From the NCBI RefSeq assembly GCF_002256775.1, contig NZ_NCII01000018.1:1-46604 (forward strand): 46,604 nucleotides of DNA. Direction: 5' to 3'. The position numbers and the translations under genes were made by a program. Source of the DNA: Novosphingobium sp. 17-62-19 (GTDB lineage: Bacteria > Pseudomonadota > Alphaproteobacteria > Sphingomonadales > Sphingomonadaceae). Positions 28,043 through 43,304 of the stretch are shown here, one piece after another. Position 1 is the first letter of the stretch; each line of letters begins with the position of its first letter. Under the pieces are notes generated by a model. The model saw only the letters and a list, made by a program, of their open reading frames with translations. It was not told the origin of the DNA and did no database searches.

Positions 28043-28525
28043 TCAGTCGAAAGGGTTCTGGTCGGCGTAGCGCTCGTCCACGAACTTGATGTTGTTCGTG
28101 AAGGCATCGATGTCCTTCTGCGCGAGGTTGCGCAGGATGGTGTCGATCTTGGCCTGCATTTGTTCAAGGCTGTCGTTGAGAATGAAGCTTGCCGACTTGC
28201 CGGTCTTGCGAAAGATCTCAGACCGGTGCGCCTCCGGAATATCGATGTAGCTCTTCACCAGCTTGGGCAGATGCTGATCGCGCATCTGATCGATGTCGAT
28301 CCGCGAGAAGCCTGGCATATCTTCGCGCGCAAGAGCAGCCTCGACCTCATGGAGGCACGCCTGGATCCGGCGAATCCTGTCCTTGGCACTCGCCGGGATG
28401 CGGCTGTCCTCGTAGTCAACTTGGACAGGCGGGATGGCTGGTGCCGCCGGCACAGGTGGCAGGACTTGCGGTGTCTCGCCGCGCAAGGCCTTGCCAATGC
28501 GGGCGATGAAGCTGTTGCTGCTCAT
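28043..28525 (-). CDS. XpaC-like protein, last gene of the Ter locus
   Basis: A 160-residue soluble protein. The start at 28525 is preferred because the preceding frame appears to belong to another small gene whose TGA overlaps this ATG; the same frame is open to 28693. After a Pro-rich stretch (40-57) the protein is helical, with SARIRR-type charged helices, LPKLVKSYIDIPEAHRSEIF and FILNDSLEQMQAKIDTILRN. Position next to telA and the helical pattern match XpaC (5-bromo-4-chloroindolyl phosphate hydrolysis family), which pairs with TelA in Bacillus (xpaC-yaaN). The similarity is modest. It is probably a cytoplasmic partner of TelA at the membrane. Confidence 0.6.
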   Translation of the reverse strand: MSSNSFIARIGKALRGETPQVLPPVPAAPAIPPVQVDYEDSRIPASAKDRIRRIQACLHEVEAALAREDMPGFSRIDIDQMRDQHLPKLVKSYIDIPEAHRSEIFRKTGKSASFILNDSLEQMQAKIDTILRNLAQKDIDAFTNNIKFVDERYADQNPFD

Positions 28526-28693
28526 TTCGCTTCTGCCCCCATTTCTTCGTCCATCATCAGACCGGTTTCGGCCTCGTATTACCTGATCTGGCGCCAGAAC
28601 AAAATCGGCGCGTGGCGGTCCGCGGAAGCGACGAATCCAGACCACCCGCACTGCCGAAAGAACGAGCAGGATGCACAGGATGGTCCAGAACAT
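28522..28693 (-). pseudogene. Small membrane-protein frame, probably frameshifted
   Basis: It begins at the ATG at 28693, three bases after the telA stop, and encodes one membrane helix (MFWTILCILLVLSAVRVVWI) and a basic tail. At about codon 38 the frame becomes low-complexity Arg/Gly. The neighbouring frame there reads YEAETGLMMDEEMGAEAK and stops at a TGA overlapping the next ATG. A small indel would join the two halves into a protein of about 57 residues. The alternative is that the 28693 frame simply continues into the XpaC-like protein as a 216-residue membrane-anchored fusion. Confidence 0.45.
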
Positions 28694-28696
28694 CGC

Positions 28697-29863
28697 TCAG
28701 TTCGCCGTCAGGAGGAAATCGCCGCCGGTCGACTGGCTGCTGCCTTGCGCCCGCGCGATGTATCCTTGTGCCTTCTCGGTTTCGGCCGAGAGGGTGTTGA
28801 TGGTGGTCTTCATCGAATCCAGGGCCTTCAGCTTAAAGGTGTCGACTGCGTCCATGGTCGCGTAGATGTTCTGGAAGGCACGCTGCAGCACCTCGACCTG
28901 GATCGTGGCCGATGAGGCCTGTTCATGGATCGCAGCCGTCTGGGTACGGAGCAGATTGCCGGTGGATTCGATCATGTTGGCGGTCGTCGTATTGAGGGCC
29001 GTGATCTGGTTCAACACCAGCCGCTGATTGTTGAGAGCCTGAGCCACGGTGACCGCAGTCCGCAGGGCGGCAATGGTCGTGGTGGTGGCGCGGTCCACAC
29101 CCTTGATCAGCTCGACGTTGTTCTTCTTGATCAGGTCGAGCGCAAGGTAGCCCTGTACTGAGACGGCCATCTGGGTGAGCAGATCGGTCTGACGCTGACG
29201 AACATAGAACAGCGCGTTCTCGCGCAGGGCACGGGCCTTGGCCGGGTCGTAGCTGTCGAGCTCTGCCGTCTTCTCTTCAAGCTTGGCATCGAGCGTCTTG
29301 GTGATCACGATCATTTGCTCGAGCTTGCCCATCAGCTCCCAGATCTTCCCGCGCTCAGTCTCGATCGCGATGTTGTCCTGGAGCAGCTCGTCCTTGCCCC
29401 TCACGAGGCTGGTGATGATGGCCTGGATATGGGTCTGGGCCGAGGCGTAGCGGTCGAAGTACGCCCTGATCTTGCTGCCGAAAGGAATGAAGCCCAGGAG
29501 CTTGCGGGGCTTCAGGAGATCTCCCTGGCGGCCGGGGTCCAGTCCATCGATGACGGTGCGCAGGTCGAGCAAGGCTTTGCCCACGCCGCCTTCATCACCC
29601 ATGGCCTTGGTCGGCTTGTCGAGGAAACGGTTCGATGCGCTCGACAGCGCCACGATTTCCTTCTGGCCGATGCTGGAGATCTGGCCAGATACCTTGCCAA
29701 ATTCCGGGCTCTGGGTGTCGTGCTTGAGGAGGTCGGCAACGTAGGCGTCAACCTTGCCATGGAGCTGCGAGCGGACTTCATTGGAAACGGGAACGAGACC
29801 GGCCGCCTGCTCGGCTGGAATGGCGGCGACGGGATCGGGAGCGGTCAGGGTTAGCTCAGACAT
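28697..29863 (-). CDS. telA: TelA-family toxic-anion-resistance protein
   Basis: A 388-residue, mostly helical protein of the TelA/KlaA family (named from plasmid tellurite resistance). Typical features are the N-terminal acidic region, GEGGVGKALLDLRTVIDGLDP-like spacing, SKIRAYFDRYASAQTHIQAII, long coiled-coil stretches at about 150-260 and the closing helix FQNIYATMDAVDTFKLKALDSM. There are no membrane segments; the proteins are thought to act at the membrane with Ter proteins or XpaC. The ATG at 29863 follows AAAGG by seven bases. It is 81 bases downstream of the lyase gene. Confidence 0.92.
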   Translation of the reverse strand: MSELTLTAPDPVAAIPAEQAAGLVPVSNEVRSQLHGKVDAYVADLLKHDTQSPEFGKVSGQISSIGQKEIVALSSASNRFLDKPTKAMGDEGGVGKALLDLRTVIDGLDPGRQGDLLKPRKLLGFIPFGSKIRAYFDRYASAQTHIQAIITSLVRGKDELLQDNIAIETERGKIWELMGKLEQMIVITKTLDAKLEEKTAELDSYDPAKARALRENALFYVRQRQTDLLTQMAVSVQGYLALDLIKKNNVELIKGVDRATTTTIAALRTAVTVAQALNNQRLVLNQITALNTTTANMIESTGNLLRTQTAAIHEQASSATIQVEVLQRAFQNIYATMDAVDTFKLKALDSMKTTINTLSAETEKAQGYIARAQGSSQSTGGDFLLTAN

Positions 29864-29944
29864 AGCAAGCCTTTGGCAGAATGGGGGAAGGTAAGACGCG
29901 GGCGCACTGCATGCAATCTGTCACTGGCACCGCGCTCGAGATTG

Positions 29945-30847
29945 TCAGGCGACCCGGATCGCCGAGACGACATCACTTTCATCGACACCGAAAGTCTGTG
30001 CCCGGGCAATCACGTTGCCAGCCCACCGGCGATGCGTTGCAGGCTCGCACATGCTACCCTGCGATCCGAACACGGCGCGGGCGTCAGCCTCAAGTATCGC
30101 CTGGGCTTCATGCAACTCGCAGGCGGTAGGCTGATAGCAGCCATGGATCACGCTGATCTGGCATGGATGGATGGCGGTCTTGGTCAGCAGACCATGCTCG
30201 ATATCCTGCTCGACTTCCTCGCGCAGCAGGTCGAGCGAGGCGTAGTGCTCGAAGACCGGCGCCGCGACGGCAAAGCCGGCTGGGATAAAGGTTGCAGCCA
30301 TGTCGCGGATCACCGCGCCCAACGGGCCATCATAGGCAGTGCGGTGCTTGGAGCGCCGCACGCCAAGGATGTTTAGGATGTCGTTTCCGCCGATGCGGAT
30401 CGCGGTAACCCGCTCCCGGAAGGGCAGGAGCTGCTTGCACAGTTGTTCGAGCGCTGCACGATCGAAGGCTTCAGCGCCCTCGATCGTTGGCATGAAGGCA
30501 TGGTTGGTACCGACCATGATCGACAACCAGTGCGCGATGTTGCTCGATTCCACCTTGGGCAGGACGAATCCGTCAACAGCCTCGATGCCGGGCAAGCCCA
30601 TCATCCAGGCAAGCATGCTCACATCGCGCGGCCGTACGTAGATCGCAAGGGCGGGCGAAATGGTATTGAGGGTCAGCAGGAACGAGGCAAAGCGTGCTTG
30701 CGCCGCTTCAACCTCGTCGTCCCGGATCGAGTCTTCGAGGCAGACCACGATCGAGCGCAACTCGGGATTGCTCCCGAGGCAGATCTCGATGAGGTTGGGG
30801 CGCAGCACCGGAATGTACAGGGTGGCGCCAAGAGCAATTGCGTTCAT
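29945..30847 (-). CDS. CitE/HpcH-like C-C lyase of the Ter metabolite module
   Basis: A 300-residue TIM-barrel protein of the HpcH/HpaI aldolase-citrate lyase beta-subunit superfamily. VVCLEDSI (residues about 34-41) matches the VLDLEDSV-type metal/substrate block. LPKVESS supplies the second conserved strand, and IRIGGNDILN the third. Enzymes of this fold make or break C-C bonds of keto-acid or CoA substrates using Mg2+. In Ter loci a lyase of this type is proposed to join ATP-grasp, PRTases and HAD in making a nucleoside-like metabolite. Its ATG overlaps the StiP gene stop (ATGA, 30844-30847). Confidence 0.82.
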   Translation of the reverse strand: MNAIALGATLYIPVLRPNLIEICLGSNPELRSIVVCLEDSIRDDEVEAAQARFASFLLTLNTISPALAIYVRPRDVSMLAWMMGLPGIEAVDGFVLPKVESSNIAHWLSIMVGTNHAFMPTIEGAEAFDRAALEQLCKQLLPFRERVTAIRIGGNDILNILGVRRSKHRTAYDGPLGAVIRDMAATFIPAGFAVAAPVFEHYASLDLLREEVEQDIEHGLLTKTAIHPCQISVIHGCYQPTACELHEAQAILEADARAVFGSQGSMCEPATHRRWAGNVIARAQTFGVDESDVVSAIRVA

Positions 30848-31941
30848 TCCTGTGCGCCTCCGAGCTTCTTGATGATGGCGACGGCGCGATAGGTCGACAG
30901 GTCGCGTTGAACGATGGGTACGCCGGCGGCGCGGGCGAGGAAGATCATGTGCTGCACCTCGGGATCATCGAGGTCGGCGAGGTAAAGCTTGTCGGGCACG
31001 CGGCGCAGGATGGCGCGGGTGGCTTCGGCAACGCCTGGCTTGATCCGGTTGACGTCGTCTATGCCATCGTCGGCCATGATCGATGCGAGCAGAGCCTGGC
31101 AGTTCTGCCGAGCTGCTGTGACATGCTGCTGGTGAAGCCCAGCCGGACGGTTTGGATTCACCGGCGCTGCCTCGATGTCCGCGATGAAAGCGGCGCTCAT
31201 GTCATGCGCACGGTGCTCTTCCATGAAGTTGCAGGCATGAAAGTCATCCGGGCCGACCAGCTCGTCATTGAGCACCGAACGGCTGATGAGACCGGACACG
31301 ATGCCGTTGAGGAGGCCGCTCGGGATGACATAGTCCTCGGTGGTGGCGGCAAGATCGGCACAGCCAGCGGGATCAGCGACGACGGCAAGGAAAGGCTTGA
31401 AGCCGAGGTCGTTGTCTTCGAGCGAGGCGACAAGCTGTCTGGTGATCGCACCCTTGCCAGTCCAGCCGTCGACGAAGATCGAGGTCTCGACGCCATGGCG
31501 GGCCTTGATGAAGCGTAAGGCATTCTCGTCGATGCCGCGGTCGCGGATGATCGAGATCGAGTAGTGATGGGCGATAACGCCGATCCGCTCGAGCGCACGC
31601 TTGAGCAACACGCCGATCGGCGTGCCAGCACGAGCAAGCGAGATGACGACACATTCGCGCGACGTTTCAGGACGGGCTGCAATGGCGCTGGCCAGCTGCT
31701 CGATATCGGTCCGCAGGTTGGAAGCGTTGCGTTCCAGCGCTTCGCGATAGAGCTTCAGGTAGCGCGCATCGGGCACCTTTTCGGCGCTGAGCATTTCGGA
31801 GTAGTGACGCTTGCCCGACTGGATGAGCGCTTCCTTCTGATCGACAGAAATCGGCGCGATTGCTGCAGGCTTGAGCAGGATCTGGACATCGCCCGGATCG
31901 TAGCTCCCGGAGAAGGGCGCAGCGTGAATATCGTTGGACAT
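30844..31941 (-). CDS. StiP/PRTase_1 family phosphoribosyltransferase-like protein
   Basis: A 365-residue protein. The ATG at 31941 forms TGATG with the HAD gene stop, which decides the start over a longer frame. SGSYDPGDVQILLKPA and the block ECVVISLARAGTPIGVLLKRAL are typical of the family that databases label cysteine protease StiP and that comparative genomics assigns to the phosphoribosyltransferase fold. FVDGWTGKGAITRQL resembles a PRPP-binding loop. A C-terminal segment (about 300-365, DKLYLADLDDPEVQHMIFLA) may be the associated RNA-binding-like (Pelota) domain. It probably transfers or handles a ribose-phosphate group in the Ter module. Confidence 0.8.
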   Translation of the reverse strand: MSNDIHAAPFSGSYDPGDVQILLKPAAIAPISVDQKEALIQSGKRHYSEMLSAEKVPDARYLKLYREALERNASNLRTDIEQLASAIAARPETSRECVVISLARAGTPIGVLLKRALERIGVIAHHYSISIIRDRGIDENALRFIKARHGVETSIFVDGWTGKGAITRQLVASLEDNDLGFKPFLAVVADPAGCADLAATTEDYVIPSGLLNGIVSGLISRSVLNDELVGPDDFHACNFMEEHRAHDMSAAFIADIEAAPVNPNRPAGLHQQHVTAARQNCQALLASIMADDGIDDVNRIKPGVAEATRAILRRVPDKLYLADLDDPEVQHMIFLARAAGVPIVQRDLSTYRAVAIIKKLGGAQE

Positions 31942-32672
31942 CAGCACCAGACGTTCTCCAGCTTCATCTTGGTCCACAGCTGCGAAGTGGTCGGGGTCAT
32001 GGCGTAATCGCAAAGGTCCATGAAACCGACATCGGAATGGCTGTCGCCGATGCCGATCACGAGGAGATCGTCGTCGCTCGCGCGGGCGTTTTCGATCAGG
32101 TACTGGGCAGCATCGCGCTTGTTCAGCCAGGGTGGCAGGAACGCAAGGTTGTTGCCGTTGCGATGCGTTCGCCAGCCTTCAGGCAGCATCGCATTGAGGG
32201 TGGGTTCGACGTCCACGAGGATGTCGCCTTCATCGATGTTGCTCTTGACCACCAGATAGAGGTCGAGATCGCCTTCCTGGACAAGCCAGTGGCGATACTC
32301 ATCCCCTGACACGACAGGACTGATATGGGCATAGACATCGGCAGGCGCGACACCGCGGCGCGAGTGCTCATGCAGGAGCGCATGCCAGTCGGCATCGACA
32401 TCACCGTGGGCAGCAACGATGCAGCCGCCGTTCGAGCAGATGGCAGGGCTCTGTCCGATATTGACGCGGGCAAGGACATCACGGCTGCGGGCGGTCACGG
32501 GAACGACCTTGCCCTGCTCAAGCCAGTCAAGCAGGCGTTGTTGGCGGCGCGTGGCAAAGCCACTTTCCTTGCCATCGGCAAGGTAGCTCATGGTCTCGAG
32601 CCCCTTGGCCTGCGGCGGACACTTACGCGCCGTCTGGAAGAGGGTGTCGTCAAGGTCTGTCAGGATCAGCAT
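31941..32672 (-). CDS. HAD-superfamily phosphatase of the Ter module
   Basis: A 243-residue HAD hydrolase with motif I DLDDTL (Asp6, Asp8), motif II Thr60 in VVPVTARS, motif III Lys185 in LNKRDA and motif IV GDSHSD (Asp210). The order and the cap insertion between motifs II and III resemble sugar-phosphate or nucleotide phosphatases. In the Ter biosynthetic module it should remove a phosphate from the intermediate made by the PRTases. It is translationally coupled to the StiP gene downstream (TGATG at 31939-31943). Confidence 0.88.
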   Translation of the reverse strand: MLILTDLDDTLFQTARKCPPQAKGLETMSYLADGKESGFATRRQQRLLDWLEQGKVVPVTARSRDVLARVNIGQSPAICSNGGCIVAAHGDVDADWHALLHEHSRRGVAPADVYAHISPVVSGDEYRHWLVQEGDLDLYLVVKSNIDEGDILVDVEPTLNAMLPEGWRTHRNGNNLAFLPPWLNKRDAAQYLIENARASDDDLLVIGIGDSHSDVGFMDLCDYAMTPTTSQLWTKMKLENVWC

Positions 32673-32763
32673 TGCGTTGTCAGGCCTTCATTTCTTTTGA
32701 TCACGGAAACACGAAGAGGTTCACCAATCCTGTCTCCGATTGCCGATCGAACATGTGTGTCGA

Positions 32764-33045
32764 TCACTTTGCACACTGGCGCAGTACGTCGTTCTGCGAC
32801 CAGCAGCCTGGTGCATGTTCCCGCCAATACTCCCGGATCGCCAGCTGCTCGTCGCTGGAGATGTAACGGGAATAGCGTGGCCAGCCAAAGGCATCGCGAT
32901 CCTGCTCGGCAAGGGTCACGATCTCTCTGGCGCGCTGGCGGCTCAGAGGGCGATGCTTCTCGTTGATCGACGAGATGCGTCGTCCCTGAAAGCGCTGTGC
33001 CGGAGAGCGCTCGTAGCTGTCGTTTGCAGCTGTCATGACGGACAC
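32764..33045 (-). CDS. Small hypothetical protein inside the Ter module
   Basis: A 93-residue basic protein starting with GTG at 33045, one base after the PRTase-TRSP stop (an ATG three codons later is the alternative). It contains SRQRAREIVTLAEQDRDAFGWPRYSRYISSDEQLAIREYWREH, an all-helical pattern, and ends WSQNDVLRQCAK. No family is recognised. Its place between the two halves of the metabolite module and its tight coupling suggest an accessory or RNA/protein-binding partner. Confidence 0.65.
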   Translation of the reverse strand: MSVMTAANDSYERSPAQRFQGRRISSINEKHRPLSRQRAREIVTLAEQDRDAFGWPRYSRYISSDEQLAIREYWREHAPGCWSQNDVLRQCAK

Positions 33046-33046
33046 T

Positions 33047-34204
33047 TCAGGCAGCGCGAGAATAGCGGCAGAGCGTCAGCTCAACCTGCAACGATGCACC
33101 AAGCTTGGCGAGGGCGGCGTGTGCGTCATGAACCTGTCCCGCTTCGATCTCGGCTGCAATGATCACACGGTAGGGATCATGCTCGAGCATGTTGTAGAGG
33201 AAGGTAGGGGCTGTCGAGCCGTACGCGTCCTTGAACTCCGAACGGGTGCGCATGGCGTGCCCGACAATGGCCGGGGTCCGCGTGATGCTCTGCACCGCAG
33301 CGATGCCGCCCTGGGCCTCCACTTCTTCCGCAATGCGCAGAGCTTCGTAGGAATGCTCCCCGTCGCCGAGCACGAGGACGCGATAGCCCGGCTGGCATTC
33401 GACAGGAGGGCGAATGGCCGCCTCAGGCTGCCACAGGCCGCAGCGGCTGCGCATGCCGGTTTCGGGGGCATTGCCAGCGCCATTCGAGCCTGCAGCCAGC
33501 TGCGGGGCGACAGCATCAGGGTTGGGCTCCCAGGTCATGCTACCTGACAGGACCGAGTGGGCGTGTGCCGGCCGAGGCATCCCGGCGAGATACTTGCCGC
33601 CGCTCCAGTCGGTGATGCAGCAGGTATCGACTTGCTCGATGTTGGGCATAAGCCCAAGCATGCCCTCGGCGGCAGAAATGAAGGTATTGCCGGTGCTACA
33701 TTCGTCGTCGACAACGATGAGCGTGCGTGCCTTGGCGATGAAATCGAGCATGGCTGGATCTTCGACCTGCACAAGATGCGAGGTCGCGTGGCTATGGCCT
33801 TCCTCGAAGGTCGCGATTGGCGTCAGGCCAGCAACCTTCTGCCGGGATGTCTGCAGGTAGAGACAGGCAACATCCGGGTTACGAGCCTGATAAGCCGCAA
33901 AGACGCCTTGGCCCAGGGCTGTGGCTGTCTCGGCCATACCGAGGAATACGACCGGCTGCGGCACTTCGGCGCTGATCGAAGCGGCCAGCGCATCCATAGC
34001 CGCGCGCATGGCCGCTGGCCGCGCCGGGATGTGCCGGCCCAGCACCTTGGAAACGATCAGAAAGCCGCGCTTGGGATTGGCGCGCGCGGCAAAGGCGCAG
34101 AGCTCGTCGATATCCGGACCATGTTCGATGGTCAGATTGAGGGTGCCGGTTGGCAGCACAACTTGCTTGTGCCGGGGCTTGGTGCTGATCGTTGCGTCAA
34201 TCAC
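33047..34204 (-). CDS. Phosphoribosyltransferase with TRSP domain (PRTase_2)
   Basis: A 385-residue two-domain protein. Residues about 20-230 form a PRTase fold with a clear PRPP loop VVDDECSTGNT (164-174), preceded by YLQTSRQ and GHSHATSHL. Residues about 250-385 match the TRSP-type C-terminal domain found only with these PRTases (VLVLGDGEHSYEALRIAEEVE, FLYNMLEHDPYRVI). It is expected to make an N- or C-ribosyl compound from PRPP in the Ter-linked pathway. The start at 34204 is taken from the longest frame. The small 93-residue gene follows at once. Confidence 0.88.
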   Translation of the reverse strand: MIDATISTKPRHKQVVLPTGTLNLTIEHGPDIDELCAFAARANPKRGFLIVSKVLGRHIPARPAAMRAAMDALAASISAEVPQPVVFLGMAETATALGQGVFAAYQARNPDVACLYLQTSRQKVAGLTPIATFEEGHSHATSHLVQVEDPAMLDFIAKARTLIVVDDECSTGNTFISAAEGMLGLMPNIEQVDTCCITDWSGGKYLAGMPRPAHAHSVLSGSMTWEPNPDAVAPQLAAGSNGAGNAPETGMRSRCGLWQPEAAIRPPVECQPGYRVLVLGDGEHSYEALRIAEEVEAQGGIAAVQSITRTPAIVGHAMRTRSEFKDAYGSTAPTFLYNMLEHDPYRVIIAAEIEAGQVHDAHAALAKLGASLQVELTLCRYSRAA

Positions 34205-34290
34205 TGAATTTCATCTTTCCATGCCATGGGTTCACCCACGGCGACTGCAGCTTCATATGTTCCGGCGTCACGTCCGCTGCAGGCAGAGCC

Positions 34291-35361
34291 TCAGGTGAGA
34301 GGCTTCTGCACGAGCAACATTCCCCGCGCGTTGGTGTCGATGTTGGCACCAAGGTGGCGCAACAGGTTATGCGGATCTATCGCATGGATTTGCGATACGT
34401 CCACCGTCCCCCAGGCATCGCGCGTCACCGAGACAGTGGCAACATACTCGTCCGAAAGACGTCCTGTTGAACCAGTTCTCTGGGTGTATGCTGACAGCGC
34501 AACCGTATGGACCGCGCTGGAAGCTGCGAAGCTATGTCCGATAAGACGGGCAATAGCAGAGCAGACGTGGTCAAGATAGAGGCAAGCCAAGTCCTTCTGG
34601 CTCATGGGCTTTTCGACGAGTTCCATCTTGGAGATCAACGCGCTCCAGCGCGTTGCCGGCATCTCCTCGATCTCGGGAAGATCGACATCGAGAAGCAGAC
34701 GTCCATTGGCCACGTCGAGCGCAATATTCGTCTCGGCCGGCCAGTCCAAGGCACCCAGAGCTTGCAGGACCGCATCGGCGATGGCTGCATCGTCAGGGCC
34801 TGAATTGGCTTGGTCAGCCCGCCACTTCATCAGCGCTTCCATGTATTCGCTGTGCGATGGGAAGTGGTGGGACTGTGGCTTACCGGCATTGCTTGCCTGT
34901 GCAGGTGCAACCGAGCGAGGGATGTCGTGATGGAGCCGGCGCAAGGCATCGAGCGCGTCATTGCGAGCTGTGGCATTGTCTTCGAGGAGACCGCGAATAA
35001 GGTCCTTCATCTGCGACTTCACGTTTGCGAGATGCGCCGGATGGATGGGATCGCCGCCGCCATCGACAAGCTCGATACCATTGCCAACCAGCCTTGCCTG
35101 TGCCGACGCTGGCATGGGCGGCAAGCTGGGGGCTTGCTCACGGTATTCGTCGTTGCGCGATCGCGAAAGCCCGCTGGGCTTGTCGAGGCGCTCACGCCAG
35201 CTGAGGCCACTGCCGGGGATGCCGACATTGCCATAGATGCCATTCTTGCCGACGGTCACCGAGGCACCGCGCGGACCCGCGCTCATCGAGACACCCGACT
35301 TGGACAGGTTTAAGCGCAGGCCGGGGAAGAGGGTGATGCGCTTCTGGAATCGGAAACCCAT
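34291..35361 (-). CDS. DUF4236 protein of the Ter locus
   Basis: A 356-residue protein. The ATG at 35361 follows AGGA by six bases. Residues 1-55 are a DUF4236 domain: MGFRFQKRITLFPGLRLNLS, SGVSMSAGPRGASVTVG and YGNVGIPGSGLSWR are its characteristic beta blocks. The remainder (about 60-356) is helical and unassigned, ending with VTRDAWGTVDVSQIHAIDPHNL. DUF4236 is of unknown function and often occurs at the N-terminus of variable proteins. Here it lies between the TerD-like/trypsin fusion and the PRTase. Confidence 0.82.
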   Translation of the reverse strand: MGFRFQKRITLFPGLRLNLSKSGVSMSAGPRGASVTVGKNGIYGNVGIPGSGLSWRERLDKPSGLSRSRNDEYREQAPSLPPMPASAQARLVGNGIELVDGGGDPIHPAHLANVKSQMKDLIRGLLEDNATARNDALDALRRLHHDIPRSVAPAQASNAGKPQSHHFPSHSEYMEALMKWRADQANSGPDDAAIADAVLQALGALDWPAETNIALDVANGRLLLDVDLPEIEEMPATRWSALISKMELVEKPMSQKDLACLYLDHVCSAIARLIGHSFAASSAVHTVALSAYTQRTGSTGRLSDEYVATVSVTRDAWGTVDVSQIHAIDPHNLLRHLGANIDTNARGMLLVQKPLT

Positions 35362-35373
35362 GATCGGTCCTGC

Positions 35374-36498
35374 CTATGAAAGTACGGTGATGCTGACGAC
35401 GGAATCGCGCAGCCGGTTGACGACTTCACGGCGATTGGTGTCATGCAATGGCGGGTGGTTGGGCAGGTGCATGCCGGCAGCAGCGACCAGCTCGTAAACG
35501 AGGCTGGCCTTGATCCCGAAGTTGACGTTCTCCGAGATGCTGCCACGCTCGCGCAAGTTGCGATGGGCAAGCGATGCCGAAGTGATGCCAACAACATTGC
35601 CGGCATCGTCAACGATTGCACCGCCTGAAGAGCCCGAGCCGATCGGCGCGGTGAACTGGAAGCGCGAGACATCGCCCATGCCGCCGGTGAGACCCGAAAC
35701 GTTGCCGGTCGTAACCTTGAGATCACCGCCCAGGAGATCCATCAGCGGGAAGCCTGAAGCCATGACGCTCTCGCCAAGCCAAAGCGGCGAGGTCAGACGA
35801 AGCGGGAGGGGCTGACCTTGAACGGGGCCTTGCAGGAGCGCGAGGTCGTGGAACTCATCTATGGCCAGCGCCGTGACATACTGCCGGGTCCGACTAAGCA
35901 GGAAGCTGCTGCCATCCTCGATGACGTGGGCATTGGTCACGATCAGGTTCGCCCCGATGATCACGCCGCTGCCCGTACCAAGAGTACTGCCCGATGGCCT
36001 GCTGTCGCGATGATCTGGCGCAGGTGGCGCGTCACGACCGGCGCTGCGGCGGCCGCGATGCGGAATGGCGATCGAAGAGAAGTTGCGCGCGCGGACATAG
36101 GCATCGATGCCGAAGGTGTAGCCTTCACTTGAAACCTTCATCCGCAATGTTCCATCGCGGGTGTAGATCTCCCCGATGATCACTGCAGCAAGTTGCTCGC
36201 CAGGCGTCGGAAGCACGTAGTGATCCGAGCCGATCTGCATGCTTGCCGGATAGGCGGAATTGGTGAAGCCGCCTTGGGTGTCGTCGGTGACGTAGGCAAT
36301 GAGGTCGGCTTGTCCCCCCAATCCATTGAGCGACTGAAGGACCCATTGTCCGTGACCAACCTGGTCGAAGGCGACGGTGTGCCCCTGTGGCGTGATCGCC
36401 GCCACAGCCAGCCGGTCAGCATCGCGACCATCGAAGCGGATCGTGATCGCCTGTCCTTGTGGCAGGGGGAAACGCTGACCTGGCTGGAGTTCGCTCAT
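35374..36498 (-). CDS. TerD-like domain fused to a trypsin-like serine protease
   Basis: A 374-residue protein with two domains. Residues about 1-145 resemble a TerD-type beta-sandwich (IIGEIYTRDGTLRMKVSSEGY corresponds to the [15 protein letters not shown] end of TerD). After a linker (148-172), a chymotrypsin-fold protease follows with GTGSGVIIGANLIVTNAHV (His191), EFHDLALLQ (Asp218) and GSGSSGGAIV (Ser291): a complete HtrA-like triad without a PDZ domain. There is no signal peptide, so it is likely cytosolic. The ATG at 36498 overlaps the ATP-grasp stop (ATGA). It may be a protease whose activity is gated by Ter proteins or the module's metabolite. Confidence 0.82.
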   Translation of the reverse strand: MSELQPGQRFPLPQGQAITIRFDGRDADRLAVAAITPQGHTVAFDQVGHGQWVLQSLNGLGGQADLIAYVTDDTQGGFTNSAYPASMQIGSDHYVLPTPGEQLAAVIIGEIYTRDGTLRMKVSSEGYTFGIDAYVRARNFSSIAIPHRGRRSAGRDAPPAPDHRDSRPSGSTLGTGSGVIIGANLIVTNAHVIEDGSSFLLSRTRQYVTALAIDEFHDLALLQGPVQGQPLPLRLTSPLWLGESVMASGFPLMDLLGGDLKVTTGNVSGLTGGMGDVSRFQFTAPIGSGSSGGAIVDDAGNVVGITSASLAHRNLRERGSISENVNFGIKASLVYELVAAAGMHLPNHPPLHDTNRREVVNRLRDSVVSITVLS

Positions 36499-37502
36499 GG
36501 CGTGGGCATCTCCGACATCTTCGTGATGGAGGAAGTGGTCTTGATCTTGAAGTCGAGGTCCGGCCGCGAGATTGTGTCTGGCGTCAGGCGGCCGCTCAGC
36601 AGGCCGCCCCAGTCCGCGAGCAGGCCGGTGCCGAATTCCTCGCCGTAAACCGAGCCACCCGCCGGACGCGCATTGATCTCAAGCGCCTTCCAGCTGCCAT
36701 CCTTGGCCTTGCGGAACTGGACATTGATCACGCCATGCAGGCCGAAGCGTGCGACCAGATTGCGGGCCTGAGCTTCGAGAGGGTGATAGGTCTGCAAGCG
36801 TTGGTATGCGGCCTCCTTGGTTCGGGCGACATACTTCAGGATTATGCCATGGTCGCACAATACGTCGAACGACACCTCGGGTCCCGGCAAGTACTCCATG
36901 AGCACGAACGGGGCGAGTGGACGGACGGCTTCCTCGGCTCGCAGCGCGGCAAGGAACAGGTCCTGGTGCATCGCACGCGCATCTGGATTGATGACGTGCG
37001 AGAGGGGCGACTTGTTCGTCAGGCGCCAGAAGCCGTGGCCGTTGACGCCGTTGCGCGGCTTTACGCAAGGCGATGCATCGTCGAGCAGCGTAGCAAATAG
37101 CGGCAGGGTTGCTTCGAGATCGGCTGCACTGCCGATATTGACCGTCTTGAGGTGGAAGTCCTCGCCAGCAATGGCGTTGGCGAAGGCAAACTTGTCCTCG
37201 AGGAGTTCGAGGGTGTCGATGTCGGCCGGAAAGTGGACCGCGCAGGGCAACTCGGCGCTGGCGAGGAGTTTGCGCCGCCGCGTCGGGATGAGCAGATCGA
37301 TCTCGTTCTCCTCGATCTGCTTACGCACCCATGCGACGTAGGCCTCGTCATCGAGTGTGGGCTCGGCCCAGGTCTCCTGCGCGCCTGCATAGACGGGCAT
37401 GTTCTCGCCCACGCTGATAACGACCTCCAGTGTGGGGTCGGCCGCCATCATGGCCTTGGCGATAGGAGCAAGGGAAAAGCCGCGATTGAACCAGATGCGC
37501 AT
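36495..37502 (-). CDS. ATP-grasp ligase of the Ter metabolite module
   Basis: A 335-residue protein. The ATG at 37502 has AGGA six bases upstream; the longer upstream frame is antisense to the next gene and rejected. The pre-ATP-grasp strand region (MRIWFNRGFSLAPIA) and the ATP-grasp core are present: PCVKPRNGVNGHGFWRL (nucleotide-binding loop), FVLMEYLPGPEVSFDVLCD, and the metal-binding end VINVQFRKAKDGSWKALEINARPAGG. ATP-grasp enzymes join a carboxylate to an amine or thiol with ATP. In Ter loci this one is proposed to ligate an amino acid-like group in metabolite synthesis. Confidence 0.88.
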   Translation of the reverse strand: MRIWFNRGFSLAPIAKAMMAADPTLEVVISVGENMPVYAGAQETWAEPTLDDEAYVAWVRKQIEENEIDLLIPTRRRKLLASAELPCAVHFPADIDTLELLEDKFAFANAIAGEDFHLKTVNIGSAADLEATLPLFATLLDDASPCVKPRNGVNGHGFWRLTNKSPLSHVINPDARAMHQDLFLAALRAEEAVRPLAPFVLMEYLPGPEVSFDVLCDHGIILKYVARTKEAAYQRLQTYHPLEAQARNLVARFGLHGVINVQFRKAKDGSWKALEINARPAGGSVYGEEFGTGLLADWGGLLSGRLTPDTISRPDLDFKIKTTSSITKMSEMPTP

Positions 37503-37536
37503 TGGGTATCCTGAACGAGAATGAGAAAGGCTGCGC

Positions 37537-38808
37537 TCAGCGTGCCGGGAGGATGCCCTTGGCGCGCGCGGCTTTGAGCCAGGCCGGGAATTCGGAGAGA
37601 AGGCGGTCGTAGAGTTCCTCGTCGCTGATCTTGGCAAGATCGGTGACAGCGAAAAAGCCCGCGTTATCGACGACGCGGCCGGGCAGCGTATCGAGGTTGC
37701 GCAGCATGCCGAAGTTGTTGTTGCCGATGCCGACGAACTGCCAGAAGATCGGACGGTGCGCGGCATTGGTGATGATGCGGGCGATATCCTTGCTCGGCGC
37801 AAAGCCACCGTCGGTCAGGAAAATGACCAGGAGCGGCGTGGTGCGCTTTGCCGGCTCATCGTCGAGGAGCGCGTTGAGAATGACGATCTCGTTGTTCACG
37901 CCGCCGATGGTGACCTCACCGCGGCGGTCGATCGATGCACAGGAGTGCTTCTGCACGCCGCTGACGGCCTTCATCGGCCCCGGAAGAGTCCGGGGAATGT
38001 AGCCCTCGTAGTTCTTCGCAGTGAGGTCTTCGGTACGCGCACAGCCCGAGGCATAGAACCAGGTCGGCATGATGCCGTCGTCGTCGAGGCGCAGGCTGAC
38101 CGGCACAATGCGCTCCACGGTCTCCTGCACGGTTCCGCTGCTGTAGAGCCGGCTCATCGAGCCAGTCGCGTCAATCACGAAGAGGACCTCGGCCTTTTCG
38201 TGCTCGATGCCGAGCTTCTTGAGGGAGACTCCGACCTTCTGCTTGCGCAAGTCGACCTTGCTCAACGAGACAGGCGGCGGCGCAGCGGCGGACGGAGCTG
38301 CTGCAGGGGCTTCTGCGACCTCGCCACCCAGGTGACGGATCAGATTGGCGAGGCCACCTGTGAAGCCCTGAACGACCACGCCCAAGCGCCATGCGCCGTT
38401 GTGACGATAGAGGTCGAGCAGCATCACGGCCTTCTCATCGCTCAAGGTGGCGAGAGGCGTGATCGTGGCAACGCCTGCAAAATCGACGCTAAGTTCGCGC
38501 GCTTGCTTGAGTGCCATGGTGTCATGGCTGGCAACGAGCGAGATGCGATCGACCGAAGCTGGCACGCGGTCGAGGTCGACCGAGATGACGGTTGCGCCGG
38601 CGGCGCGCCGGTAGGAGATTGCGCCTTCGGGGCTGCGCTCGTTGCTGAAAAGGATGGTGTAGCGATCATCGGCGATCTTGCGTTCGGTATTGAGGCCAAA
38701 GGCAACGATATCGATGTCGTCAGGAGCATGGCGAACGGTGACGTCGATCTGACGGCTGGAGGTGAGATCTGCGACGGCACGCTTTTCGCCGGGTGACATT
38801 GTGGACAC
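37537..38808 (-). CDS. terF: TerF-like protein: TerD domain plus vWA domain
   Basis: A 423-residue protein. Residues 1-165 are a TerD-family domain without the usual DLDAS metal motif (IVAFGLNTERKIADDRYTIL takes its place). A Pro/Ala linker and a SLKKLG segment lead to a vWA domain (about 205-415) with MIDAS residues in VIDATGSMS (Asp213, Thr215, Ser217) and FLTDGG. E. coli TerF has the same architecture. The vWA part probably binds a partner through a metal ion and organises the Ter complex. It follows the TerD gene after an intrinsic terminator, so expression may be graded. Confidence 0.9.
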   Translation of the reverse strand: MSTMSPGEKRAVADLTSSRQIDVTVRHAPDDIDIVAFGLNTERKIADDRYTILFSNERSPEGAISYRRAAGATVISVDLDRVPASVDRISLVASHDTMALKQARELSVDFAGVATITPLATLSDEKAVMLLDLYRHNGAWRLGVVVQGFTGGLANLIRHLGGEVAEAPAAAPSAAAPPPVSLSKVDLRKQKVGVSLKKLGIEHEKAEVLFVIDATGSMSRLYSSGTVQETVERIVPVSLRLDDDGIMPTWFYASGCARTEDLTAKNYEGYIPRTLPGPMKAVSGVQKHSCASIDRRGEVTIGGVNNEIVILNALLDDEPAKRTTPLLVIFLTDGGFAPSKDIARIITNAAHRPIFWQFVGIGNNNFGMLRNLDTLPGRVVDNAGFFAVTDLAKISDEELYDRLLSEFPAWLKAARAKGILPAR

Positions 38809-38825
38809 TGGGATGCTCCTGAGAA

Positions 38826-38868
38826 CAAAAAAACATGGGCCGGCGACCGCTGCTGCGGTGCCGACCCA
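38826..38868 (-). terminator. Terminator between terD and terF
   Basis: TGGGCCGGC..ACCGC-TGCT-GCGGT..GCCGACCCA (38836-38868) forms a hairpin with small bulges. On the minus strand it is followed by seven Ts within TGTTTTTTTG (38834-38826). It should reduce read-through from the TerD genes into the terF-biosynthesis part. Confidence 0.8.
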
Positions 38869-38884
38869 CTAGGCAAAAAGCGGT

Positions 38885-39460
38885 TTAGACGTTGACGCCC
38901 ATGGCGCCGGCAAGGCCTGCGAGGCCAGATGCCCAACCCTCGCCAATCGCCTTGACCTTTACGTCGCCGTTCGCGCGGTAGAGCTCGACGAAGACCATGG
39001 CAGCATTGGTGCTGCTGTCTTCGCTGAGGTCGAAGCGGGCAAGTTCCTTGCCATCGGCATCGTTGATCACGCGCGCGTATGCGTTCGAGACCATGCCGAA
39101 GTTCTGGCCGCGGACCTGGCCGTCGTGGATCGTCACGGCGATCACGACCTTCTTCACGGTGTCGGGCAGTTTGGCGAAATCAATTTTAATGGTTTCGTCA
39201 TCACCGTCGCCAACACCAGTGAGGTTGTCGCCACCATGAGATACGGCACCTTCTGGCGAAGCCTTGTTGTTGTAGAACACGAAGTGCGTGTCCGACAGGG
39301 CCTTCTCGTCCTGGCCGAGAACAAAGGCAGAGGCATCGAGGTCGAAGGCCTGCCCATCGGTCTTGCGGGCGTCCCAGCCCAGGCCGACGGTGACCGAGGA
39401 AATGCCGGGCGCTTCCTTGCTGAGATTGACGTTACCGCCTTTGACAAGCGAGACTGCCAT
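38885..39460 (-). CDS. terD: TerD-family protein
   Basis: A 191-residue single TerD domain. VGLGWD (25-30), [11 protein letters not shown] (39-49) and [10 protein letters not shown] supply the acidic residues that bind Ca2+ in this family, and [20 protein letters not shown] is the typical C-terminal hairpin. TerD-type proteins are cytosolic metal-binding proteins proposed to associate with the membrane partner TerC. The gene lies between two stem-loops, and its closest relative in the window is the upstream TerD/E gene. Confidence 0.95.
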
Positions 39461-39522
39461 TGATCAGGTATCCTTATGTGTGGCGTGGGGCCAATGCAGG
39501 CCTCCGCAGGTTTACAAGCTAG

Positions 39523-39562
39523 TGCCCCGCATGGCTGTCCCATCGACAACCTATGCGGGGCA
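39523..39562 (-). repeat. Stem-loop between the two terD/E genes
   Basis: TGCCCCGCAT (39523-39532) and ATGCGGGGCA (39553-39562) are perfect 10-bp arms with a 20-base loop. There is no T-run, so it is more likely an mRNA-processing or stability element than a terminator. Confidence 0.55.
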
Positions 39563-39588
39563 TCATCGCCAACTTATGGGGTCAAAAA

Positions 39589-40167
39589 TCAGCCGATATT
39601 GACACCGTAATTGATCGCAAGGGGGCCAAGACCGCCCTTGTAGCCCTGACCGACAGCGCGGAACTTGAATTCCGAACCATGGCGATAGACTTCACCGAGG
39701 ATCATCGCGGTTTCGACCGACGCGTCTTCGGAAAGGTCGTAGCGGACGATCTCCTTGCCGGTCTTCTCGTTGACCAGACGGATGTAGGCATTCTGGACCT
39801 GGCCAAACGACTGGCGGCGCTGCTCGCCTTCGTGGATGGTCACGACGATCGCGACCTTGTCGATATCGGTCGGCAGCTTCGACAGGGTAATTCTGATCTG
39901 CTCGTCATCACCGTCACCGGCACCAGTGCGATTGTCGCCCTGATGGGCGACGGCGCCGCCGGCAACGCTCAGCTCACCATAGAAGCAGAAATCCTTGTCA
40001 TTGCGAACCTTGCCGCCAGCGTTCAGCAGGAAGGCCGATGCGTCGAGGTCGAAGTCCTGGCCGTCGGTCGAGCGAGCGTCCCAGCCGAGACCGACCATGA
40101 TCTCGTCGAGGCCCGGATCTTCCTTGGACAGCGAGACGTTGCCGCCCTTCGAGAGTGAGATTGCCAT
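39589..40167 (-). CDS. TerD/TerE-family protein
   Basis: A 192-residue TerD domain. The ATG at 40167 has AAGGA eight bases upstream, preferred over an upstream in-frame [20 protein letters not shown] and [10 protein letters not shown] hold the acidic Ca2+ ligands, and [19 protein letters not shown] closes the domain. It is similar to the following terD product and probably a paralogue able to form mixed assemblies. It is downstream of terC. Confidence 0.95.
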
Positions 40168-40257
40168 GGGATTTATCCTTTCCATGTTTGGCAGTGGCGG
40201 TTGATGGTTGCCGCCGGCGCTCCCGCCGAGAACGCCTGCGAATTCAGATGATGGGAT

Positions 40258-40281
40258 GGCGGCAGAACAGGCTCTGCCGCC
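40258..40281 (-). repeat. Stem-loop between terC and terE-like gene
   Basis: GGCGGCAGA (40258-40266) pairs with TCTGCCGCC (40273-40281) around a 6-base loop, 9 bases after the terC stop. No T-run follows on the minus strand. Confidence 0.5.
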
Positions 40282-40289
40282 GCTCCGCT

Positions 40290-41390
40290 TCAGGTGGTGC
40301 GAACGCCCGGAACGACCTCGCCGGTCGGCAGGATGGCGTCAGCTTCGCCCTCTTCCTCGTATTCGTGCGGGAAGAGCTTCTTGTGACGGATCGAGGCCCA
40401 CAGCGAGAGGCCGATGATCAGCGCGCCCACAAGGCCGGTGACGACTTCGGGCGTATGGACGCGAATGCTGATCAGCATGATCACGGCCAGCGCGACGATG
40501 GCGTAGAATGCGCCCGGCTCAAGGAAGCGGAACTCGCTGAGGTGGCCACCCTTCACCAGCGCGACGGTCATCGAGCGGACGAACATGGCGCCGATGCCGA
40601 GGCCAAGAGCGATGAGCAGGATGTCGTTGGTGATGGCAAAGGCACCGATCACGCCGTCGAACGAGAACGAGGCATCGAGGAATTCGAGGTAGACGAAGGA
40701 CGCAGCGCCCGAGCGAACGACCTTGCCGGTGGTCGCGTCTTCCTCGCCGCCCATGAAGTCGCCGAACTTCTGCACGAGGAAGTAGACAGCAACACCCGAG
40801 AAGCCCGCGATCAGGAAGGTGCGCTGTTCGGCTGCGTCGAGCATGAACGAGAGCCCACCGATGATGGCTGCGGTCGCAAGGTAGGGAGCGAACGGAATCT
40901 TGGCGAATGCAGCCAGCGGCTTCTCGATGAAGCCGATCCAATGGTGCTCTCGATCTTCATCGAAGAAGAAGCTGAGGCCCACGAGCATCAGGAAGGCGCC
41001 GCCGAAGCCCGAGATGCCGATGTGGGCACCGGTGACGATCTCTTCGTAGAGCTTGTGATCTGTAATCGCGATGCGCGTTGCTTCCCACGGAGTGACCATG
41101 GCAGCGAACGAGACGATCAGGATCGGGAAGACGATGCGCATGCCGAAGACGGCGATGAGAATGCCCCAGGTGAGGAAGCGGCGCTGCCACTTCTCGTCCA
41201 TGTCCTTGAGGATCGAGGCGTTGACGACGGCATTGTCGAGGCTGAGCGAGGTCTCCATCACGCCGAGCACGCCGGCGAGGAAGACCATCGAGAGGGCTGG
41301 GCCCAAAAGGCCGGTCTCGGTGTATCCGAGAACGCCTGCGAGGATGAGGCAAACGATCGTGAAGACGATCGAGCCGCGGAAGGCTTGCAT
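40290..41390 (-). CDS. terC: TerC/DUF475 integral membrane protein
   Basis: A 366-residue polytopic inner-membrane protein with about nine hydrophobic helices. Two acidic membrane motifs typical of TerC/DUF475 are present: [14 protein letters not shown] (about 45-58) and [19 protein letters not shown] (about 225-245). TerC proteins are proposed metal-ion exporters or membrane anchors for TerD proteins; the family also includes the Mn2+ exporters of the Alx type. The C-terminal 30 residues are cytosolic and acidic. The long plus-strand frame across it is antisense shadow. Confidence 0.93.
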
Positions 41391-41441
41391 GAGGCTATTT
41401 CCTATTTTCAGAAGCGTACCGGAACACGGACGATTCCCCCG

Positions 41442-42656
41442 TTAATCCTTGGTCGCCGAGCGCCAGTTGAAATAATATCCGAGGGATTCAGCGAACGGCT
41501 GCTGACTGTCGAAATACTGCATGTACCGCTCCATCTTGAGTTCACCATTTCGGTTCTCGATGGTGGCGATGCCGCAGAGACGCTTGTCGTTGCGCCCTTC
41601 ATTCATACGCACTTCGATTTCCGGTTGGCCGGGAATGTTCATGCGGACGACGCCGTCGGTCTGCGTCCAGTTGGGCACGCCGTCATAGATCAGCGCGAAG
41701 ACAGCAAGGCGCTCGAACTCGTCGAAATACTTGCCGTTGATCCGAATCGTCTCGCCAGCGGCGACTGCACCGGTGCGATCGTCACCTGAAAGCTCGATCC
41801 ATGGATAGTTGTGGAAGGAACCAAAGGTGTTGCCCAGTGCCTGGACAATACCCCCGCTGCCGTCCTTCATCTCGAAGATCACACCAAGATCGAGGTCGAT
41901 CTTCTTGGGGCCGCCACCGAAGAAACCTCGCTTGCCGGTATCCTGGTTCCAGTTGAGATTGAGGACAATCTCACCGAAGGTCGAGCCCTGCTTCTTGAGG
42001 CTGACGGTGGAGTTCGACTTCTCGAGCGAGATCTTGCGCAGCGAAACCGGCGGCGCGCTTGGCGGCGGCGGAGGAGGCGGTGGTGCAGGAGTAGGCCGCG
42101 GGGGAGCCGGTGGTGCCGGAATGACGGGAGGAGCAACAGGTGCAGGGGGAGGGTTGGTGTCGCCAACCTCGCCACCAAAGTGCGTCACAAGCGCAGCCAG
42201 GCCACCGTTGAAGCCGGCGCCGACGGTGCCGAGGCGCCAGCCGCTCGAATGGCGGTAGAATTCGACGAGCATGACGGCCTTCTCGCCCGAGAGGTACTGG
42301 GCGACGTCGAAGACGGCCTTGCCGCCGTCGATGCTGACGATCAGCGGGCGCGAGTTCGCTACCGGCTGGCTGTCATGCGTGGCAGTTAGCACGATGCGAT
42401 CAATGCTTGCCGGTAGACGATCTAGCTCGAGGTTGAAGGTCGCGCTGTCTGAGTAGGCATTGAGCCTGATGGCCCCTTCCGGACTGTTCAGATTGCTGAA
42501 CAACACGACGTAGCGATCATCGCCGATCTTCTTGTCGGCGTTGAGACCAAAGGCCGCGATGTCGATGCCATCGAGGCCGAAGTCGATCTTGACCGCGCAC
42601 GCTGTGCCGATGCCAAGATCAGACAGCCCGCGTTTTTCGCCGCGTTGTAGCTGCAT
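41442..42656 (-). CDS. terA: TerA-like protein: two TerD domains
   Basis: A 404-residue protein. The ATG at 42656 follows AGGGGAA. The N-terminal TerD-like domain (1-160, DIAAFGLNADKKIGDDRYVV) lacks DLDAS. A Pro/Ala linker (about 170-200) encoded by a GGC/GGA-rich tract follows, then a second TerD-like domain (about 205-400) with KIDLDLGVIFEMKDG and ELSGDDRTGAVAAGETI. The ending PEIEVRMNEGRNDKRLCGIA matches TerA. It probably forms part of the cytosolic metal-binding Ter assembly. The gene is 51 bases upstream of terC. Confidence 0.9.
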   Translation of the reverse strand: MQLQRGEKRGLSDLGIGTACAVKIDFGLDGIDIAAFGLNADKKIGDDRYVVLFSNLNSPEGAIRLNAYSDSATFNLELDRLPASIDRIVLTATHDSQPVANSRPLIVSIDGGKAVFDVAQYLSGEKAVMLVEFYRHSSGWRLGTVGAGFNGGLAALVTHFGGEVGDTNPPPAPVAPPVIPAPPAPPRPTPAPPPPPPPPSAPPVSLRKISLEKSNSTVSLKKQGSTFGEIVLNLNWNQDTGKRGFFGGGPKKIDLDLGVIFEMKDGSGGIVQALGNTFGSFHNYPWIELSGDDRTGAVAAGETIRINGKYFDEFERLAVFALIYDGVPNWTQTDGVVRMNIPGQPEIEVRMNEGRNDKRLCGIATIENRNGELKMERYMQYFDSQQPFAESLGYYFNWRSATKD

Positions 42657-42680
42657 GGAGTTCCCCTGTTTCACATTGAA

Positions 42681-42710
42681 GAAGCCGGACCTTCGGAAAG
42701 GTCCGGCTTC
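42681..42710 (-). terminator. Strong stem-loop between terZ-like and terA
   Basis: GAAGCCGGACCTT (42681-42693) and AAGGTCCGGCTTC (42698-42710) form a perfect 13-bp stem with a 4-base loop, 12 bases after the terZ-like stop. The T-run is weak (TTCAATG), so partial termination or RNA processing is likely. Confidence 0.75.
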
Positions 42711-42722
42711 AAGATACGCCGA

Positions 42723-43304
42723 TCAGATGACGCGCTGGGCGTCGCCTACGAGGTTCTTCACGGTCTTGCCGTTGGTGCGATGGCCGATGGCCTTGAACGA
42801 CCAGTCGCCACCGTTGCGGCTGAGGCAAGCGAGGATAAGGCCGGTGTGCGGCCCGCTGTCCGAGATCGGGAAGCGGGCCAGCTCGCGGCCGCCGTTGTCG
42901 ACGACGCGGCCATAGGCATTCTCGACCTTGTCGAAGGTCTGACCACGGAAGCTGTTCACGGTGAGCACGACGTGCTCGACCTGGCGCGGCAGGCGGTCGA
43001 GATTGACGGCGATCGATTCATCATCGCCATCGCCTTCACCGGTCAGGTTGTCGCCGCTGTGGCGCACCGAGCCATCGTGGCTCTGCAGCTGGCCGAACCA
43101 GATCGTGTCGATCTCGTTCTTGCCAGCATCGAGGAGAAGTGCCGAGGCGTCCAGATCGATGCTGTCGCTGCCGCCGAAGACCTTGCCGAGGAAGCCCTTG
43201 GGCTTGGCGACATCCCAGCCCACGCCAAGGGTGATGCTGGAAAGGCCATTGGGCGCCTGCTTGGCGAGGCTGACGCTCTGGTTCTTGGTCAGTGAGATGG
43301 ACAT
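42723..43304 (-). CDS. terZ: TerZ-like TerD-family protein, first gene of the Ter locus
   Basis: A 193-residue protein. The ATG at 43304 has AAGGA five bases upstream; an ATG two codons earlier overlaps that Shine-Dalgarno. LGVGWDVAKPKGFLGKVFGG, then IDLDASALLLD and GEGDGDDESI, mark a TerZ/TerX-type TerD domain with the GFLG insertion of that subgroup. The Ca2+-binding acidic residues are present. Being first after the 470-base regulatory region, it is likely the most strongly expressed gene of the locus. Confidence 0.9.
   Translation of the reverse strand: MSISLTKNQSVSLAKQAPNGLSSITLGVGWDVAKPKGFLGKVFGGSDSIDLDASALLLDAGKNEIDTIWFGQLQSHDGSVRHSGDNLTGEGDGDDESIAVNLDRLPRQVEHVVLTVNSFRGQTFDKVENAYGRVVDNGGRELARFPISDSGPHTGLILACLSRNGGDWSFKAIGHRTNGKTVKNLVGDAQRVI

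Follow-up and report, generated by a model that had tools for sequence, protein, structure and literature searches.

Sensing and enzyme genes of a Ter locus in Novosphingobium sp. 17-62-19, and its predicted TerD-like/trypsin fusion protease

Ter loci in which sensing genes stand beside an enzyme module were reportedly described in 2012 by Anantharaman, Iyer and Aravind, the enzymes being said to make a nucleoside-like metabolite. We analysed a run of genes that is almost certainly a Ter stress-response locus, on a contig of Novosphingobium sp. 17-62-19 (46,604 bases of a 3.8-Mb draft genome in 149 contigs; the whole stretch is called hereafter the window). Among the described systems, the ter genes of Klebsiella have a two-operon layout, with an enzyme cluster whose predicted role is either the synthesis of a nucleoside-like metabolite or a part in DNA processing (PMC8115787). 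The metabolite prediction and a role against phages are stated in PMC7824862 and PMC5512222, a terC mutant gave larger plaques and zinc induces the operon (PMC12054061), and PMC7824862 calls a phage-borne locus a relatively complete Ter system. Ter is common on plasmids. In their available parts, these four papers do not identify the product of the enzymes, nor does the cited literature identify an output of the system. An earlier note on this DNA, made from the sequence alone, had called the product only predicted, in agreement with PMC8115787, PMC7824862 and PMC5512222 as far as their available text goes.

The sixteen minus-strand genes of that note were recovered as a run of 16 successive open frames, from 43310 to 28043, of which one (93 residues) is doubtful as a gene. 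The distances between them range from -4 to +128 bases. In gene order, with lengths in amino acids (aa) and Pfam scores, the frames are:

42723-43310, minus strand: TerZ-like TerD-domain protein, 195 aa, the first gene (TerD 159.9 bits; DLDAS kept, with DLDA at residue 52)
41442-42656, minus strand: TerA-like protein, an N-terminal TerD domain without DLDA plus a proline-rich linker (TerD 92.8 bits)
40290-41390, minus strand: DUF475/TerC-family membrane protein, 366 aa (DUF475 377 bits, TerC 71 bits)
39589-40185, minus strand: TerD protein, 198 aa (TerD 276.9 bits; DLDAS present)
38885-39460, minus strand: TerE-like TerD protein, 191 aa (TerD 253 bits; DLDAS present)
37537-38808, minus strand: TerF-like protein, TerD domain plus vWA, 423 aa (vWA-TerF-like 240.8 bits, TerD 68 bits)
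36495-37502, minus strand: ATP-grasp enzyme, 335 aa (ATPgrasp_Ter 80 bits)
35374-36498, minus strand: TerD-like domain plus HtrA-like trypsin protease, hereafter TerD-trypsin (Trypsin_2 73.5 bits; triad H191, D218, S291)
34291-35361, minus strand: DUF4236 protein, 356 aa (DUF4236 83.8 bits; a homologue ends the enterobacterial enzyme run)
33047-34204, minus strand: PRTase_2 plus TRSP phosphoribosyltransferase, 385 aa (PRTase_2 185 bits, TRSP 35.9 bits)
32764-33045, minus strand: 93-residue frame, a doubtful gene (no Pfam hit)
31941-32672, minus strand: HAD-IIB phosphatase-like protein, 243 aa (Hydrolase_3 23.6 bits)
30844-31941, minus strand: StiP plus PELOTA_1 protein, 365 aa (StiP 312 bits, PELOTA_1 86.6 bits, from a scan of the longer frame to 32013)
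29945-30847, minus strand: CitE-like C-C bond lyase, 300 aa (C-C_Bond_Lyase 280 bits; citrate-lyase-like relatives with solved structures)
28697-29863, minus strand: TelA, 388 aa (TelA 296.8 bits)
28043-28693, minus strand: protein of 216 aa from an unnamed family, modelled as helical, adjoining TelA (no Pfam hit)

A Pfam family was thus assigned to 14 of the 16 frames, nearly all linked to Ter and most with scores far over the cut-off, whereas Pfam matched neither the last gene nor the 93-residue frame. The set expected of a Ter locus with enzymes is present, with several TerD-domain proteins and a TerC-family membrane protein on one side, and ATP-grasp, PRTase_2-TRSP, HAD, StiP-PELOTA and C-C lyase families on the other. 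This bears out the earlier claim that the run combines sensing genes with enzyme genes. Profile searches placed the ATP-grasp, PRTase_2, StiP and lyase proteins in Ter-associated families, as that note had anticipated. The HAD match was weak (23.6 bits versus a cut-off of 20.9, with Cof and HAD-IIB models matching below their own cut-offs), and this gene is placed only to superfamily level. Across the entire draft genome five TerD matches were found, all within the locus. The DLDA segment is present in TerZ, TerD and TerE and absent from TerA and TerF; the TerA start is probably the ATG at 42656.

The genes are tightly packed. Four-base overlaps are present between the ATP-grasp and trypsin genes (36495-36498) and between the StiP and lyase genes (30844-30847), and base 31941 is common to the HAD and StiP genes if StiP begins at the ATG of the sequence TGATG, so that all three junctions proposed earlier were found. 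Two starts were corrected: the StiP gene occupies 30844-31941, and the ATP-grasp gene begins at an ATG, the listed GTG at 37808 falling within terF and the homologues in the related loci L034 and L035 beginning alike. We infer a single transcript for the run; promoter and terminator scans of it gave signal no higher than shuffled sequences, and a scan for RNA families and tRNAs found none. Relative to L035, the closest relative seen, the ratio of nonsynonymous to synonymous differences (pN/pS) was 0.10-0.34 for 14 genes of the run. The value for TerF (0.54) is invalid because L035 has no match to the vWA TerF.

Gene order is retained among the relatives. The closest, Novosphingobium sp. 28-62-57 (L035/L048), has the same order, with 70-89% identity per gene, except that it lacks the TerF vWA gene and that the 93-residue frame is only 45% identical over 65 residues. 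Like the window, the Klebsiella IncHI2A plasmid (L028) and a Cronobacter plasmid (L029) carry TerZ, TerA, TerD, TerE, TerF, ATP-grasp, PRTase_2, HAD, StiP, a CitE-like lyase and DUF4236, and the enzyme order matches. Their enzyme run (ATP-grasp, PRTase_2, HAD, StiP, lyase, DUF4236, TerW) is divergent from the terZA-type genes, and these two operons include TerB, TerW, TerY-type vWA, PP2C and kinase genes. In contrast, the window has one direction, a DUF475-type TerC, DUF4236 before PRTase_2, TelA with the 216-aa partner, and TerD-trypsin. At 1e-3, tblastn matched none of TerB, TerW, TerY and PP2C in the window, nor the enterobacterial TerC query, and TerB had no match in 16 PRTase_2 loci of the genus and family. 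The missing TerB, TerW, TerY and phosphatase are an accessory difference from the enterobacterial form, not a defining lack, and the run is a regular representative of a known locus type, in the form usual for Sphingomonadales. The earlier note listed DUF4236 among the things that this copy adds, but both enterobacterial plasmids have it after the lyase gene (29-31% identity across about 330 residues), and it is therefore no novelty of the window. More broadly, 2,554 of 72,556 plasmid records, the majority of them enterobacterial, carry a relative of the PRTase_2 protein, and the phage-borne Ter locus has one at 28% identity, although it is much diverged.

In TerD-trypsin, a TerD-like match within about residues 47-142 precedes a protease of about residues 170-340; no signal sequence was seen by eye. 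With hhalign, the first 145 residues of a 36-protein alignment scored 97.6% with TerA, 95.8% with TerE, 95.7% with TerD and 71% with TerZ, versus at most 1.9% for seven unrelated families encoded at these loci. The match spans residues 47-142 (TerA) or 92-141 (TerD), leaving the first 45 residues uncovered. The Pfam TerD cut-off is passed by the diverged fusions L030 and L033 (30.8 and 32.2 bits) and by that of a Pseudomonas plasmid (L114, 33.2 bits). The protease half is HtrA-like, with Foldseek matches to DegS and HhoA, and the triad columns H191, D218 and S291 are invariant in 36/36 aligned proteins; L056, L083 and L084 were left out of this alignment for their uncertain starts, and all three carry the His and Ser motifs. 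As far as sequence can tell, the fusion noted earlier is real, with a TerD-like N-terminus and a trypsin-type triad predicted to be catalytic. Its pN/pS is 0.20, inside the 0.18-0.34 spanned by the five enzyme genes; by this measure, selection conserves its sequence to roughly the same degree as theirs.

To see whether the fusion arose once, a tree of protease domains was made (20 rows: 11 fused, 9 HtrA-type); it needed two changes, with a single clade in 9% of bootstraps and long branches meeting. It excluded five fused proteins that did not fit the motif filters (L114, L123, L091, L122, L103); in a separate alignment that includes them, each of the seven rows retains the His, Asp and Ser positions. 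TerD-trypsin as a replacement of TerF was considered because the vWA part of TerF was found in only 3 of the 37 loci carrying TerD-trypsin that are described below. As a general rule this was rejected, since the two genes occur together in the window and are both missing from several loci. A known phage-defence system was also considered and rejected: when 10 of the 16 proteins were compared with the PADLOC models, the sole match was that of the protease part to an RT-protease model.

How regular the gene is was estimated in two ways. A named genome collection, scanned with five TerD-trypsin proteins, gave 37 loci picked through the TerD-trypsin gene, which by title are Sphingomonadales and Asticcacaulis, one being titled only proteobacterium 'SPHING1'. 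Among the genes searched for, TerD-trypsin stands directly before PRTase_2 (27 loci) or DUF4236 (10 loci) in all 37, each time within a Ter locus. Because these loci had been chosen through TerD-trypsin itself, loci were resampled by PRTase_2 alone. PRTase_2 matched (E<=0.001) in 22 of 197 genomes, of which 8 were over the cut-off and 7 were taken on; G149 (29.4 bits, a partial match) and the sub-threshold rows were omitted. With the window set aside, the six same-genus loci had TerD-trypsin intact in four, gutted in one (L032) and not found in one, "intact" meaning that the stretch matched is free of stops and retains the His and Ser motifs. It was present in 9 of 10 loci of the family sample (397 genomes) and in 1 of 4 of the class sample (385 genomes; L091, where it adjoins PRTase_2 on the opposite strand). 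Taken together, it was intact in 13/16 PRTase_2 loci of the Sphingomonadaceae, 1/14 wider loci and 14/30 overall, although some genomes of the family sample are the same organisms as in the 37-locus set, so that the counts are not independent. In L032 (about 10397-10716, minus strand), only the two ends of the gene are left, corresponding to residues 1-50 and 340-396 of the query; the protease core is lost, while the rest of the Ter locus is kept.

Outside these groups, 133 plasmid records matched TerD-trypsin (E<=1e-15), 126 of them from Pseudomonas, and five were examined (two Pseudomonas, one Burkholderia, two Rhizobium). The fusion lies between ATP-grasp and PRTase_2 in P. citronellolis pRBL16 and in a P. 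juntendi plasmid, and before PRTase_2 in a Burkholderia stagnalis plasmid; one Rhizobium record has no Ter gene among the annotated neighbours, and the other matched in the protease part only. Pseudomonas pRBL16 (L114) and pHNGDW697-1 (L123) share with the window ATP-grasp, TerD-trypsin, PRTase_2, HAD, StiP and lyase in identical order, but differ from it by Ter genes placed after the enzymes, the presence of TerB and an extra HAD gene, and pRBL16 also by a DUF4236 further downstream. The architecture itself, TerD N-terminal to a trypsin-type protease, dates in print from 2008, when it was reported in a single protein of P. syringae, YP_273108.1 (PMC2605481); the available text neither characterises that protein functionally nor discusses its neighbours. 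A word search of the main text of the pRBL16 tellurite paper (PMC8779313) found none of the words trypsin, peptidase or phosphoribosyl. TerD-trypsin, which the earlier note took for an addition of this copy, is therefore not special to it, given its presence in 37/37 loci and on Pseudomonas and Burkholderia plasmids; it is a common partner of the Ter locus in this bacterial group.

The explanation that we favour for the whole, with moderate confidence, is a Ter locus that joins sensing to an enzyme pathway and would have TerD-trypsin as an output arm. Judging from the enzyme families, we lean to a similar degree towards the run making a small-molecule product: PRTase_2 would build a phosphoribosyl compound, HAD would remove a phosphate from it, and the CitE-like lyase and ATP-grasp would reshape and extend it. 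The product would then be bound by TerD-type domains located with TerC and TelA at the membrane. TerD-trypsin may serve as the cytoplasmic arm of the system, its TerD-like half docking the protease to the Ter complex or binding the same ligand, so that stress, once sensed, would switch on HtrA-type proteolysis. Proteolysis is suggested as one output because a TerD-type domain bears a protease inside the enzyme run and is under comparable selection. That the protease is gated by a ligand or a complex is a tentative proposal, which we would sooner doubt than accept. Less likely still is the fuller form, an effector that would read a phosphoribose-derived signal directly or via the Ter complex and then cut proteins of the cell or of an invader; if true, Ter, at least in this branch, would be a signal-and-effector circuit of immunity or stress with proteolysis as output. 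A protease with an intact triad, linked via a TerD-type domain to the enzyme genes, is also a biochemical handle on what these enzymes make.

Several observations weigh against the output-arm explanation. In a single-sequence Pfam search the TerD half of this copy reaches 13.4 bits versus a cut-off of 25.3, its counterpart in L035 is below the cut-off too (14.6 bits) and that in L034 has no TerD row. The DLDA segment that TerZ, TerD and TerE have is absent from the protein, as it is from TerA and TerF. Its model has a predicted template modelling score (pTM) of 0.54, and the best 50 fold matches listed are all protease matches, which speak for the protease half only. TerD-trypsin was not found in five and gutted in one of the 20 PRTase_2 loci from genus, family and class. 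The phylum sample (398 genomes) added 10 loci, in none of which it was found, though one of them, L137, has only 0.8 kb before PRTase_2. Being missing from many PRTase_2 loci, it is not needed by the pathway. ATP-grasp, searched with the window query, was not recognised in 12 of the 37 TerD-trypsin loci, and the pathway may therefore be shorter. These 12, all with PRTase_2 kept (L057, L059, L060, L062, L064-L069, L071, L075), belong in 11 cases to the Erythrobacter/Porphyrobacter group. Some of the absences may be false, because several loci end at a contig edge and elsewhere the gene lies upstream of TerZ; in L111, which has sequence upstream of TerZ, three ATP-grasp queries gave no match. 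The most constant enzymes are PRTase_2 (37/37), HAD (35/37), StiP (35/37) and lyase (33/37), some loci being incomplete. Finally, in Klebsiella terZ-F by itself gives tellurite resistance (PMC8115787, section 6), and the enzymes are therefore dispensable for that trait.

This last point, together with the divergent operons of Klebsiella (PMC8115787), also fits the idea that the sensing or resistance genes and the enzyme genes are two independent modules co-travelling on mobile DNA, with an enzyme product unrelated to TerD sensing. The same idea is consistent with L031, where PRTase_2, HAD and StiP are the only genes of the window's set within 20 kb, and with the scattered distribution of the locus, which gave 7 strong PRTase_2 hits, one of them the window's own, in genomes G000-G118 of the same genus. 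However, the run is co-directional here, with a TerD-type protein amid the enzyme genes, and TerD-type proteins accompany PRTase_2 in 37/37 loci and in most loci sampled by PRTase_2, so that we hold independence of the two parts to be unlikely.

Another role for TerD-trypsin would be housekeeping, in which it would trim or clear the proteins of the Ter complex with no stress-gated output. HtrA-like proteases commonly serve in quality control, matches of the protease part include DegS, DegQ and HhoA, and relatives without the gene exist. In contrast, the TerD half and the fixed site before PRTase_2 suggest a role tied to the pathway. We regard housekeeping as possible, though rather improbable, next to the output-arm explanation.

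A second protease may be encoded by the StiP gene. The earlier note counted two phosphoribosyltransferases (PRTases) in the run: PRTase_2 is one, its VDDECSTGNT segment resembling what we take to be a phosphoribosyl pyrophosphate (PRPP) loop. StiP is a candidate for the second; a profile comparison detected no relation to PRTase_2 (0.3% probability). Both Pfam, at 312 bits, and plasmid annotation call StiP a cysteine protease, and in 35 near-full sequences Cys237, the one invariant Cys, and His46, His126 and His235 are invariant. These points would make the locus a two-protease signalling set with one phosphoribosyltransferase. However, two PRTases in the Ter system are mentioned in the available text of PMC5512222, and the invariant FxDGWTGKGAI segment of StiP resembles a PRPP loop, a likeness judged by eye only. 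The Protein Data Bank (PDB) gave no sequence relative for the StiP domain itself. We consider the protease reading of StiP somewhat doubtful.

The 216-aa protein at the end of the run stands beside TelA in 32 of the 37 loci, and the other five show neither gene; in L103 the partner is present and TelA was not recognised. Its family has a conserved HLPxL..SY..IP..HR.EIFR core (alignment of 28), and its model (pTM 0.54) had no fold match at E<=0.001. XpaC-type proteins are paired with TelA. The 216-aa protein was rejected as XpaC: PF10112 matched none of six members scanned, and, searched across the draft genome, PF10112 gave a hit only away from this gene (E 0.66).

The 93-residue frame was the third supposed addition of this copy. 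It was detected in 1 of the 37 relative loci, and its pN/pS relative to L035 is 0.58 over 65 codons; no clear start was seen in L035 in a three-frame print. Because of this ratio and the lack of a clear start, the frame may, on its sequence, not be a gene.

Other genes of the window lie beyond the last gene of the Ter run, which is separated by 110 bases from a gene for a TnpB RNA-guided nuclease (26694-27932, minus strand). A second recA (11305-12387, minus strand; 360 aa) is 79% identical over 326 residues to the other copy, on contig C7, and a LexA-like gene lies at 8035-8871; the two suggest that the contig is a plasmid or island equipped with SOS components of its own. Three methylase-like frames, two of the C5-cytosine type and one, weakly matched, of the N6 type, were seen at 5251-6387, 7433-8047 and 16670-17875 (minus strand). 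An HD/HD_assoc protein, presumably dGTPase-like, is encoded at 19337-20674 (minus strand), and a Rap1a immunity-protein domain at 13402-14019 (minus strand). Outside the window, the 20 kb around PRTase_2 in L031 contain a PP2C-like gene near PRTase_2, HAD and StiP, and the query sets matched nothing else there.

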